Positions 41,922 to 55,300 of a stretch of DNA of 64,000 bases are shown in pieces (the first letter of the stretch is position 1; every line of letters begins with the position of its first letter). This DNA is from Mucilaginibacter sp. (GTDB taxonomy: Bacteria > Bacteroidota > Bacteroidia > Sphingobacteriales > Sphingobacteriaceae), in contig NZ_JAQBOF010000002.1 in NCBI RefSeq assembly GCF_028288185.1, positions 1 to 64,000 on the forward strand, written 5' to 3'. A program made the position numbers and the translations under genes. Under the pieces are notes generated by a model, which saw only the letters and a program-made list of their open reading frames with translations, was not told where the DNA came from and made no database searches.

Positions 41922-43637
41922 TCAATGCGAATCCCGCAACACTTCCGATCCCGAACCACCTACCAGGAAATCAAGGTCTGCACCTTTATCTGCCTGCTGC
42001 ACGTGTTTAACATATAGATTGACATAGCCACGGTTTGAAGCCGGCGGCAGTGCCACCCATTTGCTTCGGCGCGTGGCTAGTTCTTCCTCTGATACTTCCA
42101 GGTGAATTGATTTGGCTGCCACATCCAGTTTTATCATATCGCCATTTTGCACCAATCCCAAGTTACCCCCAATGGCCGACTCGGGCGATACGTGTAAGAT
42201 CACTGTACCAAAAGCGGTACCACTCATGCGTCCGTCTGATATGCGTACCATATCTGTAACGCCTTTTGCTAGCAGTTTTTTAGGCAGGGTCATGTTACCT
42301 ACCTCGGGCATGCCTGGGTAGCCAACAGGGCCAACGCATTTTAAAACCATTACGCAGGTTTCGTCAATATCCAAGTTAGGGTCGTCAACACGGTCGTGGT
42401 AATCCTCAATGTTTTCAAAAACTACTGCACGGCCCCGGTGCTGCATTAATGCCGGTGTTGCTGCCGATGGTTTTATAACCGCGCCATTTACGGCCAGGTT
42501 ACCTTTTAATACAACAATGCCCGCTTCCTCAATAATTGGCTTTTCGAACTGATGTATAACCTCTTCATTATATATAGTACCGACGGTTTCAATATTTTCT
42601 TTATGCGATTTACCCGTAACGGTAATGGCATCCATATCCAAAACCGGACTCATTTGTTTAATTATAGCGGGTAGACCTCCCGCATAATAAAAATCTTCCA
42701 TCAGGAATTTACCCGATGGCATCAAGTCAAGCAACAAGGGCATTTTACTGCCGATGTTATCAAAATCCTCCAGGTTTAATTCAACGCCAATACGTCCCGC
42801 GATAGCGGTTAAATGGATAACAAAGTTGGATGAGCCGCCAATGGCCGCGTTAACTTTTATTGCGTTCTCGAAAGCTGCGCGGGTTAATATTTTTGATATT
42901 TTAAGATCTTCCTTAACCATTTCGACAATGCGCCTGCCGGAGAGTTGGGCCAATCTTTTCCTTCGCGAATCAACCGCCGGAATAGCCGCGCCGCCGCTTA
43001 ATGACATCCCTAACGACTCTACCATACAAGCCATGGTTGACGCGGTACCCATAGTCATACAGTGGCCGGGGCTGCGCGACATGCAGCTCTCGGCTTCGGC
43101 AAACTCTGCATAGGATATTTTACCGGTTTTCAGGTCGTCCGTAAACGTCCAAACGTTAGTGCCGGATCCTATATCATGTCCCTTATATTTACCATTCAGC
43201 ATAGGGCCGCCTTGTACCACGATGGTTGGCAAATCAACACTGGCGGCACCCATTAAGGTTGATGGGGTAGTTTTATCGCAGCCGGTAAGCAGTACAACAC
43301 CGTCAAGTGGGTTACCTCTTATTGACTCCTCCGCATCCATGCTGGCCAGGTTTCTAAACAGCATGGCGGTAGGTTTTAGCAATGTTTCGCCTAATGACAT
43401 AATTGGAAACTCCAGCGGGAAACCACCTGCTTCTAATACCCCGCGCTTTACGCTTTCGGCAATATCACGCAGGTGGGCATTGCAGGGGGTAAGTTCAGAC
43501 CAGGTATTGCATATACCAATTACCGGGCGGCCGTCAAACATATCCTCGGGCATACCCTGGTTCTTCATCCAACTGCGGTAGATGAAACCCATTTTATCTT
43601 TTTTACCAAACCAGTCTGTACTGCGAAACTTAGACAT
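41922..43637 (-). CDS. IlvD/Edd-family sugar-acid dehydratase
   Basis: 571 residues, the length of bacterial arabinonate/xylonate/galactonate dehydratases. Conserved cysteines for the Fe-S cluster lie in GICNTWSELTPCNAH, LLTGCDKTTPS and SPGHCMTMGTAST. SDGRMSGTAFGTVILHVSPESA near the C-terminus is the family substrate-binding signature. It dehydrates an aldonic acid to a 2-keto-3-deoxy acid in the cytoplasm. Pairing with a GntP symporter and absence of ilvBCN argue against a valine-pathway role. The exact sugar acid is not decidable by reading. Confidence 0.92.
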   Translation of the reverse strand: MSKFRSTDWFGKKDKMGFIYRSWMKNQGMPEDMFDGRPVIGICNTWSELTPCNAHLRDIAESVKRGVLEAGGFPLEFPIMSLGETLLKPTAMLFRNLASMDAEESIRGNPLDGVVLLTGCDKTTPSTLMGAASVDLPTIVVQGGPMLNGKYKGHDIGSGTNVWTFTDDLKTGKISYAEFAEAESCMSRSPGHCMTMGTASTMACMVESLGMSLSGGAAIPAVDSRRKRLAQLSGRRIVEMVKEDLKISKILTRAAFENAIKVNAAIGGSSNFVIHLTAIAGRIGVELNLEDFDNIGSKMPLLLDLMPSGKFLMEDFYYAGGLPAIIKQMSPVLDMDAITVTGKSHKENIETVGTIYNEEVIHQFEKPIIEEAGIVVLKGNLAVNGAVIKPSAATPALMQHRGRAVVFENIEDYHDRVDDPNLDIDETCVMVLKCVGPVGYPGMPEVGNMTLPKKLLAKGVTDMVRISDGRMSGTAFGTVILHVSPESAIGGNLGLVQNGDMIKLDVAAKSIHLEVSEEELATRRSKWVALPPASNRGYVNLYVKHVQQADKGADLDFLVGGSGSEVLRDSH

Positions 43638-47200: not shown

Positions 47201-49756
47201 GCCTCTAAATTAAGCAAACTGCTGTATGTTGATATTATTGATGATAGCACTGTAGTTGCCCGCCGCATAAGCGTCCCCATTAAGGATGGGCTGGGGTGGG
47301 GGCAGATACCTTTGACAAGAAACATTTTCCATGAAGGGGGCTATACTTTACGCGCTTATACCAACTGGATGCAAAACTTTGGCGATGACTTTGTTTTTAG
47401 TCAGCGGTTTTACCTGGGTGTACCGGCACCCACCACCTGGATGGTCAATGCGAAAGCTGTACTTAAACCTATAGGACAAACAGAACAACTACAGGTAGAA
47501 ATAAAGCTAAACCGGCCAGACAATCTAAATACGCCCGTAGCTTTGCGAAAGGTGCAGGTAAAGATCTTAGACAGCCAGGACTCATTATATCAGTATGAGC
47601 ATTATATCTACAAAGAAACGCTGCAAACGGGGATAGATGGCTCGCTCAGGTTTAGCCAAAACCTGAAACAAAAAGCAAATGGTAAAATGATAACGGTAAT
47701 GATTACCGCGCTCGAAAAGGCAGATGGCATTAAAATACTGCGGATACCGTTGGATCTAAATCGCGATGCAAAAATAGACGTACAATTTTTACCGGAAAGC
47801 GGCAAATTGGTGGCAGGCTTAAAATCGGTAGTCGGCTTTAAAGCAATTGCCGAAGATGGGACGGGCACACCTGTTAGCGGCAGTATTTATAATAGCAAAG
47901 GCGTAGCTGCAGCAACTTTTACAACCTTATATAAAGGGATGGGATCATTTGAATTTACCCCCGAAGCAAATGAAATTTATACTGCAAAATTAAGCAGCCC
48001 TGTTGTTAAAAGCTTTACCTTCCCTAAAATAAGTGCTATAGGTACGGTTATGCATATAAACAACCCCGAGAAAGACGATGAGCTAAAAGTTTCCTTTGCC
48101 GGCTTAAAAAATTTACCTGCCGATAGCGCCTGTTATTTGATTGGTACTTCAAGAGGCGTTATATATTATTCGCACATTGTCGTACTTGATCAAACGGAAT
48201 TGGTAGTTCCTAAAAATATTTTCCCATCAGGCATAGCCCGCTTTACCCTGTTTAAGGGCATGAAACCATTAAATGAACGGGCAGTTTTTATTGATAATCA
48301 CGACCAATTAAGTATCAAGATTACGCCTAATAAATCTCAATATAACAAACGGGATAGTGTAGGATTGGAAATAGCGGTTATGGATAAAAGCGGTATCCCG
48401 GTGCAGGGTAGCTTTTCACTTGCGGTAACGGATGATTCACAGATCAGGCCGGATAGTGTGAGCAATTATGGTATCATGGCCAGCTTGCTTATTAATTCTG
48501 AGCTAAAGGGACATGTAGAGTCGCCAGGATATTATACTAACCGCAGGGACAAACAAGCCTGGCAGGCATTGGATAATCTGTTGCTTACCCAGGGCTGGAC
48601 GGGTTATAGTTGGAAGGACGTTTTCGCGCCGGCTAAACCACTTGGGTTTGAAATGGAAAAAGATTTTAGAATTACAGGGCGTGTATCAAATGTTTCTAAT
48701 AAACCCATACCCAATACCCCGGTATTGATATCATCGCAAAAACCAAATTTTTTGGCTACTACGTTTACTGATGCCAATGGCATATATGTGTTTAAAGATT
48801 TGCCGGCTATTGATTCGGGCTCATTTTTTATCCAGGCCAATAATAAAAACGGCAAAAAAATAATGTTTGGCAATATCAACGTCAACAAGTTTAAACCACC
48901 CGCTATCCCCCAAACATTACGCGACCTGATAAAACCATGGTATGTAAATACTGATACCGCGCAGATGAACTATGTAAAAAGAAAAGCCCAGGCAGCCGAT
49001 GAAAGCAGTATAAAACTAACCGGTATTGTGTTAAAACAAGTAGAGGTAAAAAGTAAAAAAATTATTATAGATTCAGACAACCCGTTAGGCCCGGGCGACT
49101 CTGACATTGCTTATGACCAAAAAGATATTAAAGAATCGGCGACTATAAACCTTTATGAGCTATTAAAACAAAAGGTGCCGGGCTTTAAAGTAATAAAAGA
49201 TTTTGTCCATTATGGTGGGTTTGCAGTACCTGAGATTAATGATATGAGGTGTAAGATCATTATAGATGGAGGGGCGCTGCCGCTGCATATTGATGACCCA
49301 TTTTCTGCAGAAGAACTGATTGAAGAAATGAGCGAGATCAAAATAGCAACTTTAAGGGGGCTTGAAGTATTGGAAAGCAGGCCGCGCCTTAACCGGTTAT
49401 ATAATATGCATTTGCCAGCTATCCCATGGATAATTATAACTACAGTTAAAGGCAATGGTTGGTATAAATCCCCTAAAACCGGTACTGTTACCTACCGGCC
49501 ATTACCTTTATTAAACCCACAGCAATTTTACAGCCCCAAATACAATATTGTATCATCAGTGACAGAGCCGGATTACCGCTCAACCCTATACTGGGAACCT
49601 AACATCACCACAAACCAAAACGGAAAAGCAAACGTTTCTTTCTATACGTCAGACATTAAGGGCGCATACACCATTAAATTTTCGGGGGTTGATGTAACCG
49701 GCGGGATTGGCGACGGCACTTTTAAACTTAACCAAATCAAACATGAAAATCCATAA
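44234..49756 (+). CDS. giant two-module A2M/carboxypeptidase-regulatory/plug-like protein
   Basis: 1840 residues. A hydrophobic N-terminal segment at about 24-37 could be a signal anchor. The chain is two homologous modules. Module a has EKVYLHMDKPYY at 60-71 and module b has EKVYLHLDKPYY from 959, the macroglobulin-like start. Both then carry a carboxypeptidase-regulatory segment (VTIAGTVQ...TDANGRF; FRITGRVS...TDANGIY). A TonB-plug-like segment follows (LIVDGQKMTADEI...LTKLG; IIIDGGALPLH...TTVKGNG). Each module ends in a segment with STIYWNP or STLYWEP. The family is common in Bacteroidota envelopes and is uncharacterised. The next gene overlaps its end by 14 nt and encodes one module. Confidence 0.82.
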   Translation: MNVDRFLRVLTLWAKPNRLTVKFGLLGSMLILLAFIPRDEDPLGKLVASLQRWTDTIPQEKVYLHMDKPYYALGDTIWFKGYVTIGSRHQLSALSGAVYVDLITEKDSIVRSLKLPVTSGMVMGNFILGDDFKEGSYRIRSYTQWMRNAGEDYFFDRTITVGSIADNDIITKADYQYKTINNKPTLTAFLNYTNDEGKALADRDVRYNIIINNKVVWVKNVKTDALGSILINIPNDGHVNLAGSYITTTITAADKTPVVKNFPIKASLSQSDVQFFPESGNLVNGLSSRVAFKAVGIDGAGTAIKGVVVDDTNNEVATIETLHAGMSSFTLKPQAGKTYTARINFVDGTIKNIALPKAVDEGYVLSIYQLDKDNVVVRVNASAKLVETGQTINLIAQTGGETIFAAPVKIEKAITSISLDKKVFPSGIAQFTIFNSAGEPLNERIAFIRSTDLMQLGLKTAKSSYRSKEHVQVELDAKDSQGKGVPGNFSVTVIDESKVPVDESLESTIFSNILLTSDLKGYIENPNYYFTAETDDVNKALDNLMLTQGYRRFAWKDLAGTVNIKPAFPAEGLGVTIAGTVQTLGHKILPGANVTLMSLKAHVMKSTTTDANGRFKFDGIFMTDSIKFALQARTVKNSDKVKIILDTIPKLKLNKNRNLADVSTNITATLKTYIDNGKKLDDIYEQTGQLDRVQRLKEVRIKAKKLKPDDGITPQGMYKIHEGSADRVITFLGDEAERCVDLKMCLEAKLQGIIIEMDGYGRPHFIDMQEKKAVGLIVDGQKMTADEIAEILEGSIPPEDVAKIEVVRTNLAMVNFLGGEYILILTKLGTTRKQYNPSTANVSPKGFNKVREFYSPRYDRPGNADKLPDLRSTIYWNPYLKTDINGKTVFNYFNADGPGNYKVIVEGINAAGELGRQVYRYTVEAGQTIIGIKTLPAADKSLALITAPLDSFNKRLPVEKVYLHLDKPYYNISDTLWFKSYLLDRVNLTASKLSKLLYVDIIDDSTVVARRISVPIKDGLGWGQIPLTRNIFHEGGYTLRAYTNWMQNFGDDFVFSQRFYLGVPAPTTWMVNAKAVLKPIGQTEQLQVEIKLNRPDNLNTPVALRKVQVKILDSQDSLYQYEHYIYKETLQTGIDGSLRFSQNLKQKANGKMITVMITALEKADGIKILRIPLDLNRDAKIDVQFLPESGKLVAGLKSVVGFKAIAEDGTGTPVSGSIYNSKGVAAATFTTLYKGMGSFEFTPEANEIYTAKLSSPVVKSFTFPKISAIGTVMHINNPEKDDELKVSFAGLKNLPADSACYLIGTSRGVIYYSHIVVLDQTELVVPKNIFPSGIARFTLFKGMKPLNERAVFIDNHDQLSIKITPNKSQYNKRDSVGLEIAVMDKSGIPVQGSFSLAVTDDSQIRPDSVSNYGIMASLLINSELKGHVESPGYYTNRRDKQAWQALDNLLLTQGWTGYSWKDVFAPAKPLGFEMEKDFRITGRVSNVSNKPIPNTPVLISSQKPNFLATTFTDANGIYVFKDLPAIDSGSFFIQANNKNGKKIMFGNINVNKFKPPAIPQTLRDLIKPWYVNTDTAQMNYVKRKAQAADESSIKLTGIVLKQVEVKSKKIIIDSDNPLGPGDSDIAYDQKDIKESATINLYELLKQKVPGFKVIKDFVHYGGFAVPEINDMRCKIIIDGGALPLHIDDPFSAEELIEEMSEIKIATLRGLEVLESRPRLNRLYNMHLPAIPWIIITTVKGNGWYKSPKTGTVTYRPLPLLNPQQFYSPKYNIVSSVTEPDYRSTLYWEPNITTNQNGKANVSFYTSDIKGAYTIKFSGVDVTGGIGDGTFKLNQIKHENP

Positions 49757-52511
49757 TAGCCTTCGTCTAAAACTAGCGACACTTTGCTCATTACTATTGT
49801 TATTGCTGGCCTTTACTCCCAAAGCTGATGACCCGATAGACAAACTGGTTACCAGCCTGCAGCAATATTTTTATAACCATCCGCAGGAAAAAGTGTACCT
49901 GCATACCGATAAACCCTACTATTTAGTTGGCGATACAGTATGGTTTAAGGCTTATGTCACCATTGGCTATAAACACCAGCTATCGGCGCTAAGCGGCGCG
50001 TTATATGTCGACCTGCTCAGTGAGGGCGACTCGGTTGCGAAAGAATTAAAACTGCCCGTAACATCGGGTATGGCGGTAGGTAGTTTTGTTTTGGATAACG
50101 AGGTTATGCGCGAAGGCAATTATCGCATAAGGGCCTATACCCAATGGATGCGCAATGCCGGCCCCGAGTATTTTTACGACAGGACGTTCACCATTGGCAA
50201 CTCCATTATCAACAACGTTTTTTCTAAAATTGATTACATATATACCAAAAACGGCAGCCAGACAAAAGTAAAAGCAGTATTAAGATATACCGATGAAAAG
50301 GGCATTGCCTATGCCGGTAAAAATGTGAGCTATCAGCTTAAAGATGGTTATAAAATAATTACAGCAAGTGGCGCAAAAACTAATGCGCAAGGCGAGATCA
50401 CCATTAACCTGCCCAATTCAAAACCGGGCGAATTGAGCGGTTCTTACATCTTAACCAAGTTAAGTGTTAACGCCAGCGAAACAGTCGCCAAAACATTCCC
50501 TATTAAAACAGCATCGCTGCAAACCGATGTTCAGTTTTTCCCGGAGGGCGGCAATTTAGTTAATGGCGTAAAAAGCAAAGTCGCCTTTAAAGCTACCGGC
50601 ACTAATGGGTTAGGTGTTGCGGTAAGCGGCACTGTTATCGACAATCAAAACAAGGAAATTGCCCAACTGGGCCTTAAACATTTAGGCATGGGCTATTTTT
50701 ATTTTACACCCGAGGCGGGCCAAACCTACAGCGCCAAAGTAACCTATCCGGATGGTTCCATAAACACCATAAAACTGCCCGATGCAGTTAATGAGGGTTA
50801 CACTTTGTCGGTGTATGCTACGCCTAAAAATGATTCTGTATTAGTGAGGATAAATGCTGCGCCGGGTAGTTTAAAGCAAGGCGGCATGTTGAGCCTTATC
50901 GGGCAATCGGGTGGTAAGGTTTATTTCTCGGCCAATGTGCCGGTTAGTAAAGGGATGACCGCTATATACTTACCTGTAGACGAGGTTCCTTCGGGCATAT
51001 TGCAGTTTACTTTGTTTACTTCAAACGGCGACCCTTTAAATGAGCGCATTGTATTTATCCAAAATAAAGACAACATCAACCTTAAAATTAACAGCCCTAA
51101 ACAGGTTTATAACCGGCGCGAAAAAGTTGACCTGGGTATTGATGCAAAAGATGGAGCAGGCAGGCCCGTTGGCGGTAATTTCTCCGTATCGGTAGTGAGC
51201 GAGACGGCAGTACCATCAGATGAGGCGAGCGAGAATACTATTTTTTCCCAACTGCTATTAAGTTCGGACATTAAAGGTTATATAGAAAAACCCAACTATT
51301 ATTTCTACAACCCCAATGCCGAAACCCGTGCGAACCTGGACATTTTAATGCTTACCCAAGGTTACAGACGCTTTGCATGGAAAAACATCTTAACGGGTAA
51401 TGTTGCGGCCCCTGTCTATAAGGCCGAGAAATTGGTAAATGCAGTAACAGGCCGGGTAACTACCATGAACCATAAACCCGTACCGGGCGCCAAAGTGATC
51501 CTGATAAACAACAAGCTACGATTTGTGCAGGATACAGTTACCGATAACGATGGACGATTTAGTTTTAGCAACCTGCTGATAACTAATGGCATTGATTTTA
51601 CCATACAAGGCACCACACCCAAAGGTGGTAAACGGGTAATTACCGAGGTTGACCGCGTAACCAAAACACCGTTAACACCAAACAACAACTTAGGCGATGT
51701 AAATGCCGATATCCCCACATTGATAAAAACATCCGTTGAAAACAATATAAAGCAAGATCAGGAGCTGGCCAAATATGGATTTGAAACCCGTGCGCATCAA
51801 CTAAGAGAAGTACAGATAAGAGCCGCCAGGGCAAAATACGGCGCGGGCAATATTAACGAAAGCCAGGCCGATGAAGTGTTTAGGCCCGATAGCCGCATGC
51901 CTTGCACCACACTAATGGAATGTTTAAACGAGATGTATAAGAGCCGCATCAGGTTTGACCAGGTAAACAGTGATGATTGCGGCCCGCTTTGGGTACCGTT
52001 TTTTAACAGAACGCCCTACGTCGTGATGATAGACCGTATGCTGATACAGCCCTGCGAATATCAATCTTTACTTTTAGGCAGTCCGCTTGATATTGATAAA
52101 GTATATACCTCGCACGAAAGTCCGGCTATATCAGCTAAGCTATTAGGTGGCTTAAACTTTCAAAGATCGGGCGGCGGCTCGCAAAACGTTGCCCCTGCTG
52201 TGATAGCCATTTTTACAAAGAGCGGTTATTTTCGCAAAACTAGTGATCCGTCTATTGTGTATTACGCGCCTAAAGGTTATGATTATACAAGAGAGTTTTA
52301 TTCGCCTAAATATGACTGGGAAACTGGCTCAAAAGTAGCCGATCTGCGAAGCACCATTTACTGGAACCCAAGGGTGTTAACCGGGCCAACCGGCCAAATC
52401 AAAGTAAGCTATTTTAATAGCGACCAAACCGGTACTTACCGGGTGACCATTGAAGGTATTAACGCCGATGGCGCATTAGCCAGGCAAGTTTACAGATATA
52501 AGGTAGAATAA
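49743..52511 (+). CDS. single-module A2M/carboxypeptidase-regulatory/plug-like protein
   Basis: 922 residues from the ATG at 49743, which overlaps the giant gene's stop by 14 nt; the TTG at 49707 is less likely. A signal-like helix is at about 7-22, and EKVYLHTDKPYY starts at residue 49. Most of the chain aligns with module a of the giant protein (HQLSALSGALYVDLL, LKLPVTSGMAVGSF, SYTQWMRNAG-like). A carboxypeptidase-regulatory segment (VTGRVTTMNHKPVPGAKV), a degenerate plug-like segment and the final STIYWNP...GINADGALARQVYRYKVE complete it. It stops exactly where module a joins module b in the giant gene. A short ghost of a module b tail lies right after its stop. Confidence 0.85.
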   Translation: MKIHNSLRLKLATLCSLLLLLLAFTPKADDPIDKLVTSLQQYFYNHPQEKVYLHTDKPYYLVGDTVWFKAYVTIGYKHQLSALSGALYVDLLSEGDSVAKELKLPVTSGMAVGSFVLDNEVMREGNYRIRAYTQWMRNAGPEYFYDRTFTIGNSIINNVFSKIDYIYTKNGSQTKVKAVLRYTDEKGIAYAGKNVSYQLKDGYKIITASGAKTNAQGEITINLPNSKPGELSGSYILTKLSVNASETVAKTFPIKTASLQTDVQFFPEGGNLVNGVKSKVAFKATGTNGLGVAVSGTVIDNQNKEIAQLGLKHLGMGYFYFTPEAGQTYSAKVTYPDGSINTIKLPDAVNEGYTLSVYATPKNDSVLVRINAAPGSLKQGGMLSLIGQSGGKVYFSANVPVSKGMTAIYLPVDEVPSGILQFTLFTSNGDPLNERIVFIQNKDNINLKINSPKQVYNRREKVDLGIDAKDGAGRPVGGNFSVSVVSETAVPSDEASENTIFSQLLLSSDIKGYIEKPNYYFYNPNAETRANLDILMLTQGYRRFAWKNILTGNVAAPVYKAEKLVNAVTGRVTTMNHKPVPGAKVILINNKLRFVQDTVTDNDGRFSFSNLLITNGIDFTIQGTTPKGGKRVITEVDRVTKTPLTPNNNLGDVNADIPTLIKTSVENNIKQDQELAKYGFETRAHQLREVQIRAARAKYGAGNINESQADEVFRPDSRMPCTTLMECLNEMYKSRIRFDQVNSDDCGPLWVPFFNRTPYVVMIDRMLIQPCEYQSLLLGSPLDIDKVYTSHESPAISAKLLGGLNFQRSGGGSQNVAPAVIAIFTKSGYFRKTSDPSIVYYAPKGYDYTREFYSPKYDWETGSKVADLRSTIYWNPRVLTGPTGQIKVSYFNSDQTGTYRVTIEGINADGALARQVYRYKVE

Positions 52512-52654
52512 TGCGCCAACAACTGAGCCGACCTGATATTTATAAGCAGGATATTAAAGAAAAGTACACCGTTAAAATAGCAGGTGTTGACGCAAACGGC
52601 GGTATTGGAGATGGTAGTTTAAAACTTAACCAGGCTAAAAAGGAGGCTAATTAA
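52511..52654 (+). pseudogene. ghost of a lost module b (47 codons)
   Basis: This frame starts at an ATG overlapping the previous stop (TAATG). Its C-terminal part AGVDANGGIGDGSLKLNQ matches SGVDVTGGIGDGTFKLNQ at the end of the giant gene. DIKEKYTVKI likewise matches DIKGAYTIKF. The first 12 codons have no match. It looks like the remnant of a second module deleted from the single-module gene. It may still be translated through the overlap. Confidence 0.65.
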
Positions 52655-52825
52655 TTATGGCTTACCAGTCTTAAAAAATATCCGACAAAAAAGTTTACTA
52701 ATGGATGGTATGGTGTAAATATAATATCATAACGGTTTATATCTGTAATATTTTATTTACAACCGTTTAGAAATGAACGGATATGACTAAAATTTTGAAT
52801 AGCTTTAGCACAGTAAACCAAAATT

Positions 52826-55300
52826 ATGAGTCCTAAAAAACCCTTGCTGACGCTTGTGCTGTTAAGTACAACCCTTAGCCTCTTTGCGCAAAAAAACGAT
52901 TTAAAACTCTGGTATAATAAACCATCCGAGAAAACCTGGGAAAAAGCCATGCCGGTTGGTAACGGCCGTTTGGCAGGTATGGTTTATGGCAACCCGGCCC
53001 GCGAAACTATCCAGCTAAACGAAGCCACGTTATGGAGCGGCGGCCCAAGCCGTAATGACAGCAAAGGCGCGTTAGCTGCCTTACCCGAGGTAAGACGGCT
53101 GATATTTGAGAATAAGCGTAAAGAAGCCGCGGCCATTGCCACCAAAGCCATGCGCTCAAATAAAGATAACGGTATGTGCTATCAGCCGGTGGGCAACCTG
53201 TACCTTAACTTCCCCGGACATGAGCAATATCAAAACTATTACCGCGATCTGGATATATCAAAAGCAATAGCCACCACCACCTACGTGGTTGATGGTGTAA
53301 CTTATAAACGCGAGGTATTTGCATCAAATGCTAACCAGGTTATTGTGGTGCATTTATCGGCAAGCAAGCCGGGTAGTTTAACGTTTTCGGCGGCTATGTC
53401 TAGTCCCCAAAAGTCAACTGTTGTTACTAAGGGTAAGGATGAGTTGGTATTATCGGGTGTATCGGGTAACCGTGACGGTGTAAAGGGAGAGGATAAGTTC
53501 CAGGCGCTTGTAAGGGTTAAGCTGGATGGCGGCGAAGTTGCCGCGTCTGACACCTCGGTCAACGTATCAAAAGCCAATGCTGCTACGTTGTTTATATCCA
53601 TCGCAACTAACTTTGTAAAATATGATGATATTAGCGCTGACGAATCGGCACGAGCTAACGCTTATCTAAATAAAGCCTGGCCTATCGCCTACGCGACATT
53701 GCTGAACAATCATGTTGCCGCTTATCAAAAATTCTTTAACCGGGTTAAGTTAGACATAGGTAAAACCGACTCCATAAAAAACACGACTGATGCCCGTATC
53801 AATGATTTCGCCAGCGGTAATGATCCGCAGTTGGTAGAGCTGTATTTTCAGTTTGGAAGATATCTGCTGATCTCATCGTCACAACCCGGCGGCCAGCCAG
53901 CCAATTTACAAGGCATCTGGAACAAAGAAATGAGCCCGCCTTGGGGCAGTAAATATACCATCAACATTAACACCGAAATGAACTACTGGCCCGCCGAGGA
54001 AACCAACCTTGCCGAAATGCACGAGCCGCTGGTACAAATGGTGAAAGACCTTGCCGTAACCGGTAAACAAACCGCTAAAGACATGTACGGCGTTGGCGGC
54101 TGGCTAGCCCACCACAACACCGACCTATGGCGCATTACAGGCCCCGTAGACGGTATTTACTCGGGCCTTTGGCCATCGGGCGGTGCATGGTTAAGCACGC
54201 AGTTATGGGACCGCTATATGTACAATGGCGATAAAGCGTATTTAAAAGCCGTTTACAGCGCGTTGCGCGGTGCGGCACAGTTTTACCTGGAGTTTTTGGT
54301 TGAGGAGCCTGAGCATAAATGGCTGGTGATAGCACCATCTGTATCGCCGGAGAATGGCCCGCAGGCCTATGGCGGCGGTATTAATATTGATGCCGGAGTT
54401 ACTATGGATAACCAACTGGTGTTTGATATATTCAGCGAGGTAATGGCCGCCGCTAAAATTTTAAATGTAGACCAGGATTTTGCCGCCAAACTAAAGGCCG
54501 CGCGTGATAGGCTACCGCCTATGCAAATTGGCCAGTACAGCCAATTGCAAGAGTGGCTGCATGATCTGGATAGCCCTAAGGACCATAACCGCCATATATC
54601 ACACTTATATGGGTTGTACCCAAGTAACCAGATATCGCCATACCGCACGCCCGAGCTGTTTGATGCCGCGCGTACCTCGTTGATCTATCGTACCGATGTA
54701 TCAACCGGGTGGAGCATGGGCTGGAAAGTTAACTTTTGGGCACGATTGCTTGACGGAAACCATGCTTTTAAACTGATACAAAACCAATTAACTCCAACGG
54801 GTAAAAACAAAGGCAGCTCTAACAATGGGGGCGGAACCTATCCTAATATGTTTGACGCGCATCCGCCGTTCCAGATTGATGGTAACTTTGGTTGTGCGGC
54901 CGGCATCAGTGAAATGCTGATGCAAAGCGCCGATGGTGCCCTTAACCTGCTACCTGCCCTGCCCGATGCCTGGCCAGCCGGAACCATCAGCGGCCTGCGT
55001 GCCCGTGGCGGTTTTGAGATTGTGAGCATGCAATGGAAGGATGGTAAAATAGCTCAGCTTAAAATTAAGTCGACCGTAGGTGGTAATTGCAGGTTGCGTG
55101 TACCAAATAGCATTAAGCTGGTTGGCGGCGCGTTAAGATCCGCCAAAGGCGCAAATACTAACTTCTTTTATCAAAACGAAGAAACCGCTAAACCCATCAT
55201 ATCAGACAAAGCACAACTAAAAGCACCCGGCGAAAAGCCAACCCTGCTATATGATATGCCAACCGTTGCCGGTAAAACTTATACCTTGGTGGGGATGTAA
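52826..55300 (+). CDS. glycoside hydrolase family 95 (alpha-L-fucosidase/galactosidase type)
   Basis: 824 residues with a signal peptide ending near LFAQ. GH95 landmarks are WEKAMPVGNGRLAGMVYG at the N-terminus, QPANLQGIWNKEMSPPWGSKYTININTEMNYWPAEETNLAE with the Asn pair near residue 385, acid E509 in PSVSPENGPQ and D685 in DAHPPFQIDGNFG. The order is an N-terminal beta domain, an (alpha/alpha)6 barrel and a C-terminal beta domain. It is an inverting enzyme releasing alpha-1,2-linked L-fucose or L-galactose. It is separate from the envelope-protein genes by 170 nt and ends at a strong terminator. Confidence 0.94.
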   Translation: MSPKKPLLTLVLLSTTLSLFAQKNDLKLWYNKPSEKTWEKAMPVGNGRLAGMVYGNPARETIQLNEATLWSGGPSRNDSKGALAALPEVRRLIFENKRKEAAAIATKAMRSNKDNGMCYQPVGNLYLNFPGHEQYQNYYRDLDISKAIATTTYVVDGVTYKREVFASNANQVIVVHLSASKPGSLTFSAAMSSPQKSTVVTKGKDELVLSGVSGNRDGVKGEDKFQALVRVKLDGGEVAASDTSVNVSKANAATLFISIATNFVKYDDISADESARANAYLNKAWPIAYATLLNNHVAAYQKFFNRVKLDIGKTDSIKNTTDARINDFASGNDPQLVELYFQFGRYLLISSSQPGGQPANLQGIWNKEMSPPWGSKYTININTEMNYWPAEETNLAEMHEPLVQMVKDLAVTGKQTAKDMYGVGGWLAHHNTDLWRITGPVDGIYSGLWPSGGAWLSTQLWDRYMYNGDKAYLKAVYSALRGAAQFYLEFLVEEPEHKWLVIAPSVSPENGPQAYGGGINIDAGVTMDNQLVFDIFSEVMAAAKILNVDQDFAAKLKAARDRLPPMQIGQYSQLQEWLHDLDSPKDHNRHISHLYGLYPSNQISPYRTPELFDAARTSLIYRTDVSTGWSMGWKVNFWARLLDGNHAFKLIQNQLTPTGKNKGSSNNGGGTYPNMFDAHPPFQIDGNFGCAAGISEMLMQSADGALNLLPALPDAWPAGTISGLRARGGFEIVSMQWKDGKIAQLKIKSTVGGNCRLRVPNSIKLVGGALRSAKGANTNFFYQNEETAKPIISDKAQLKAPGEKPTLLYDMPTVAGKTYTLVGM

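Follow-up and report, generated by a model that had tools for sequence, protein, structure and literature searches.

With reference to the comparisons made in this study, a 47-codon open frame lying directly behind a single-module family gene in Mucilaginibacter sp. is most likely the leftover tail of a separate two-module gene, once the next member of a tandem array and since lost by deletion in the lineage of the window, that is, the whole stretch of 64,000 nucleotides analysed here. Four observations taken together point to the loss of a separate downstream gene, namely the counterpart of the tail before a GH95 gene in a sister genome, the single-module state of the sister orthologue, the position of the gene in the trees and a 20-base match at the junction. 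The first-pass annotation had taken the frame for what a deletion left of the end of a two-module gene, and this part of it stood; its assignment of the lost module to the single-module gene itself did not, as the orthologues of that gene are single-module and end at the same place. The process behind the frame is ordinary gene-loss debris.

The locus and its 47-codon frame

The locus holds a tandem array of genes for large, probably exported proteins of an MG2/CarboxypepD_reg type; an N-terminal signal-like sequence was noticed by eye in the family proteins. The features are collected in Table 1. The dehydratase gene is divergent relative to the two-module gene and the genes downstream of it; the two-module gene and the single-module gene overlap by 14 bases, and in the 1840-aa protein, module a covers about residues 1-923 and module b the remainder. 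The proteins resemble bacterial alpha-2-macroglobulin-like proteins in having weak MG2 and bMG3 matches beside CarboxypepD_reg, which is above the Pfam gathering score in both family proteins; they differ in that MG2 (26.2 and 29.2 bits) stays below its gathering score of 32.8 in both, and that the weak bMG3 match passes its own in the two-module protein only. Only two weak intimin matches were obtained in a search against solved structures, and no description of the family was found in the literature searched, which covered Mucilaginibacter with the MG2 domain and proteins of macroglobulin/CarboxypepD_reg type in Bacteroidetes.

Table 1. Features of the array and of its junction (positions within the window)
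Feature	Position	Strand	Basis or remark
Dehydratase-type gene (dihydroxy-acid dehydratase, ILVD/EDD)	41922..43637	-	Left anchor; Pfam PF00920/PF24877, NCBIfam PRK06131
Two-module family gene, 1840 aa	44234..49756	+	ORF, Pfam, module cut
Single-module family gene, 922 aa, intact	49743..52511	+	ATG 49743, stop 52511
47-codon open frame: spacer, filler and tail in one frame	52511..52654	+	Judged no gene
Probable remnant of the old spacer 3' of the single-module gene	52512..52521	+	Alignment with sister contig C276 (L103)
Possible scrap from the 5' part of the lost gene (within module a)	52520..52539	+	Two small internal gaps
3' end of the lost two-module gene (some 35 codons plus stop)	52539..52654	+	DNA identity to sister contig C49 (L102)
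Kept spacer between the lost gene and GH95	52655..52825	+	94% identical to sister contig C49 (161/171)
GH95 glycoside hydrolase gene	52826..55300	+	Right anchor; Pfam Glyco_hydro_95_cat

The coordinates given in the first-pass annotation for the single-module gene and for the 47-codon frame, the TAATG overlap between them and the matching residues were all borne out. A comparison of ends also agreed with its statement that the single-module gene stops where module a of the neighbour ends: the single-module protein finishes in ...EGINADGALARQVYRYKVE followed by the stop, and module a of the neighbour reads ...EGINAAGELGRQVYRYTVE at that place and continues into module b. The resemblance of the end of the frame to that of module b (GVDxxGGIGDGxxKLNQ) was confirmed by 59% identity to the end of the 1840-aa neighbour (E = 6.6e-10), and residues 11-45 of the frame gave a local score of 118 against the end of module b, a score reached by 0 of 1000 shuffles, the best of which scored 55. 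The homology to the tail sets in from about residue 10 (DNA from 52539); the first nine or so codons consist of spacer and filler, not of tail sequence.

In the 149 genomes of the genus, that of the window included, the frame found matches at E ≤ 0.01 in 19 places of eight genomes. Sixteen of these matches sit in frames of at least 431 codons and reflect partial homology to longer genes, two, of 34 and 72 codons, are truncated where a contig ends, and the frame of the window is the sole free-standing short one. Conservation of the frame as a separate gene, which the first-pass annotation had named as evidence against its reading, was thus not observed. We also searched about 500 bases downstream of single-module genes in 13 stretches (the window, four Mucilaginibacter orthologues and eight Pedobacter genes), using the frame and four module-b tails as queries; at E ≤ 1, a tail of this kind was detected in one stretch, that of the window. 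On these data the 47-codon frame is very probably no gene; it opens as one frame by chance, and the leftover is probably without function.

The sister genome and the junction

The closest sister genome found, Mucilaginibacter sp. UBA4741 (G097), is a fragmented MAG of about 300 contigs and 80% completeness. Its contig C276 carries, in this order, the dehydratase gene, a two-module gene, the single-module gene (91% identical to that of the window), a 60-base spacer and the start of a further family gene. The last 24 bases of C276 are the first 24 of contig C31 in reverse, and C31 carries on with the last part of a module a and then module b, so that in G097 the single-module gene is followed by a gene with a start and a module a of its own. 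Contig C49 begins with the last 72 or so codons of a two-module gene, followed by a GH95 gene 98% identical to that of the window. As the start of C49 cuts this two-module gene, we infer its full length, and we take it to be one with the gene that follows the single-module gene; should C31 and C49 belong to one gene, the gap in the sequence between them would be about 550 bases. Contig C121 likewise contains the first 50 bases of C49, and C2 the low end of C31, which leaves only a lower bound of one for the genes that separate the single-module gene from GH95 in G097. No contig of G097 spans from the single-module gene to GH95, and the gene order there is the one we infer.

The tail in the window is 93% identical at the DNA level to the end of the C49 gene before GH95, compared with 88% for the first tail of C121, 82% over 83 bases for the best tail of genome G041 and 72% over 92 bases for the two-module gene of the window itself. 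The similarity to C49 continues through the stop and the whole 171-base spacer, at the identity given in Table 1. The agreement of both tail and spacer identifies the stump as the positional counterpart of the last gene before GH95. The ancestor would accordingly have resembled the sister G097 as it appears, with a two-module gene, the single-module gene, at least one further two-module gene and GH95 in succession. In the lineage of the window, the last two-module gene would have been removed by deletions out of register with the gene homology, leaving about 10 spacer bases, about 20 bases that probably belong to its 5' part, and the final 35 codons together with the spacer behind them. The deletion would amount to about 5.4 kb if one gene was lost, and the loss was probably piecemeal.

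The bases at the junction were inspected from both sides. On the left side, the ungapped alignment to C276 reaches 52521, with eight of the 10 post-stop bases identical to the sister spacer, which is a short stretch. Bases 52520-52539 agree at 20 of 20 positions, with gaps of 9 and 14, with the 5' part of the gene after the single-module gene of G097. None of 3000 random targets and one of 2000 shuffles matched the score of this scrap, whose target and gap costs had been picked after a first look at six references on both strands. Its score of 13.95 was the best of 21 family segments, one of which, with 132 bases of C121, does not reach across the position concerned, and two-module gene A of G041 came close with 13.35. 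For the filler compared with six references on both strands, 2 of 500 shuffles did as well against the sister's next gene, 14 of 500 against the window's own module b, 34 of 500 against C49 and at least 166 against the others. These figures are suggestive only: bases 52520-52539 may stem from the 5' part of the lost gene, and the junction would fit a stepwise loss of one gene and misfit an in-register crossover between paralogues.

History of the single-module gene and competing explanations

Single-module orthologues with the same end were detected in G097 (91%) and in three further Mucilaginibacter genomes, G038 (71%), G019 (69%) and G110 (64%), as well as in Pedobacter sp. B4-66, P. foliorum and P. 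panaciterrae (57-58%). The search with the single-module gene, in which six candidates were scored per genome, yielded 22 places at E ≤ 1e-230 in the 149 genomes; the five at 64-100% identity are frames of 925-951 codons, and the two-module genes among the 22 are only 44-46% identical to the single-module gene. The first-pass annotation had proposed to look for a two-module orthologue in a sister species, and the outcome was negative, both in G097 and in every other relative examined, comprising the 149 genomes and the Pedobacter genes.

In an IQ-TREE phylogeny of 31 rows, the single-module gene falls within a clade of 13 single-module rows (100/99), Pedobacter included. A quick FastTree run of 35 rows, which carried a warning that long branches meet, agrees on this clade, and both trees place the gene apart from every module a included. 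The rows omitted from IQ-TREE were two two-module genes of G041 and one gene of G110, whose module boundary was not located by pattern; the FastTree rows include the G110 gene as well as C31, which is truncated on both sides, and absent from both trees are the two G041 genes, a partial second gene of G110 and the N-interrupted two-module gene of C276. The modules b of the Pedobacter and Mucilaginibacter two-module genes form sister groups in both trees, and the modules a group in the quick tree only; these groupings suggest that the two-module form, too, probably predates the split of the two genera. In the sister G097 a stop stands at the corresponding place, and since the other orthologues are single-module with the same end as well, we judge the stop of the single-module gene ancestral.

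Against this background, it is very improbable that the single-module gene once had two modules and lost most of its own second one, as the first-pass annotation proposed. The tail does directly follow the stop, at the place that module b occupies in two-module genes, and contig C38 of G097 shows a similar loss by decay, at another gene. However, the orthologues found, those of Pedobacter too, are single-module with the same end, the trees separate the gene from every module a included, and the few bases between stop and tail resemble the spacer of the sister. Moreover, the junction does not lie inside coding sequence, since the sister has its stop at the same place and the left-hand homology runs past it, by eight of 10 bases only. 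We give a shade less credence still to the possibility that unequal recombination duplicated the end of the upstream two-module gene and carried the copy across the single-module gene: two tails in direct orientation do flank the single-module gene, but the stump is far closer to the sister's gene before GH95 than to its own upstream gene (93% versus 72%), and the similarity to the sister extends across the stop and 171 spacer bases. The window's upstream gene as the source from which the tail was copied was tried and rejected, the two identities and that of the spacer ruling it out.

An assembly artefact, in which the array collapsed in assembly and the junction is a misjoin, is very improbable as well. 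Exact 120-base repeats do interrupt this assembly within other genes of the family (contigs C22, C23 and C1), but 20-base words starting at 52352-52900 are not repeated in the window and the six other family stretches of the genome that were searched, and the filler bases match the counterpart of neither flank directly. We judge the junction to be real, with a small remainder of doubt. The least credible of all is a putative functional small gene, translationally coupled to the single-module gene. The TAATG overlap and the open frame would suit it, and so would the fact that, among the 12 differing codons, the two changes that can be placed on the branch of the frame are both synonymous. Two changes are nevertheless far too small a sample to test for selection, spacer and filler supplied the first nine or so codons, and the other 148 genomes hold no free-standing short homologue at E ≤ 0.01. 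The loss of a separate downstream two-module gene remains our preferred explanation.

Variation of the array among relatives and its meaning

The array varies widely among the relatives. In G041, G019 and G110, the orthologues of the dehydratase gene and GH95 adjoin each other directly, about 480-710 bases apart and with no family gene between them, which indicates that the array is a variable insert. G038 shows the order dehydratase, single-module gene and GH95, with 97 bases to GH95 and neither a two-module gene nor a remnant, so that the ancestral gene content depends on the branching order. In G108, the start of a family gene beside the dehydratase gene (L138) and the module-b-type ends before GH95 (L109) lie on different contigs. 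The G108 gene before GH95 (L109 1183-4095) is free-standing, with 970 aa and a module-b-type end, and to the eye its first residues look like the beginning of the GH95 protein. In three Pedobacter species (L131-L133), a two-module gene, truncated in L131 by the start of the locus, is followed by two or three single-module genes, so this order is old.

Several further observations were made on the family in the two genomes. Contig C38 of G097 (L106, 1000-1515, minus strand) carries a 917-aa gene of module-a type with a decayed module b directly after its stop, consisting of VEKVYLHLDKPYYNIGDTLWFN and further pieces in another frame, with stops; this seems to be an event of the kind that the first-pass annotation proposed, at a different gene. 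Contigs C121 and C127 of G097 (L101 and L104) hold tandem two-module genes overlapping by 14 bases, and a 24-base overlap suggests that C127 comes after C121, the same 24 bases occurring also inside C121. The family search returned 49 matching stretches in G097 and 15 in the genome of the window. In the latter, the ends of contigs C22, C23 and C1 (end of L081, L082 and start of L083) have a run of exactly 120 bases in common, inside family genes, and C23 also overlaps with itself, so these contigs are probably a collapsed tandem array elsewhere in the genome. At both its ends, the two-module gene of the window finds its best match in the positional counterpart of G097, with 91% identity in the first 300 bases and 83% in 191 bases near the end; from 47234 on, over most of module b, contig C23 of G097 is the better match in seven of eight segments (71-79%, versus 65-74% for the positional counterpart). 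This pattern suggests, at the level of sequence, an exchange between members of the array. A wider reading, in which the arrays form a reservoir of exchangeable pieces, with paralogues, stumps and decayed modules swapping interior segments, surface proteins re-made at fixed loci and the stump a spent donor, is put forward as an unlikely one.

Deletion in bacterial genomes can leave gene remnants in the form of truncated pseudogenes, and tandem arrays of paralogues can contract. The present stump is like such remnants in being a short 3' piece beside intact neighbours, recognisable by synteny with a sister; it is unlike them in that the lost gene came from a tandem array and the stump mimics part of the preceding gene. 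It recalls array contraction in that the number of genes ranges from none (G041, G019 and G110) through one (G038) to at least three (G097), and differs from it in that the junction is out of register with the gene homology, which argues against a simple unequal crossover between paralogues.

These results correct the history of the pair of genes: judging by the relatives, the single-module gene lost nothing, and its clade was single-module before the split of Mucilaginibacter and Pedobacter. The MG2/CarboxypepD_reg-type family is both large and variable. From a tandem array, a gene of about 5.5 kb can vanish and yet leave a stump that resembles a part of the preceding gene, and such mimicry matters for the annotation of paralogue arrays.
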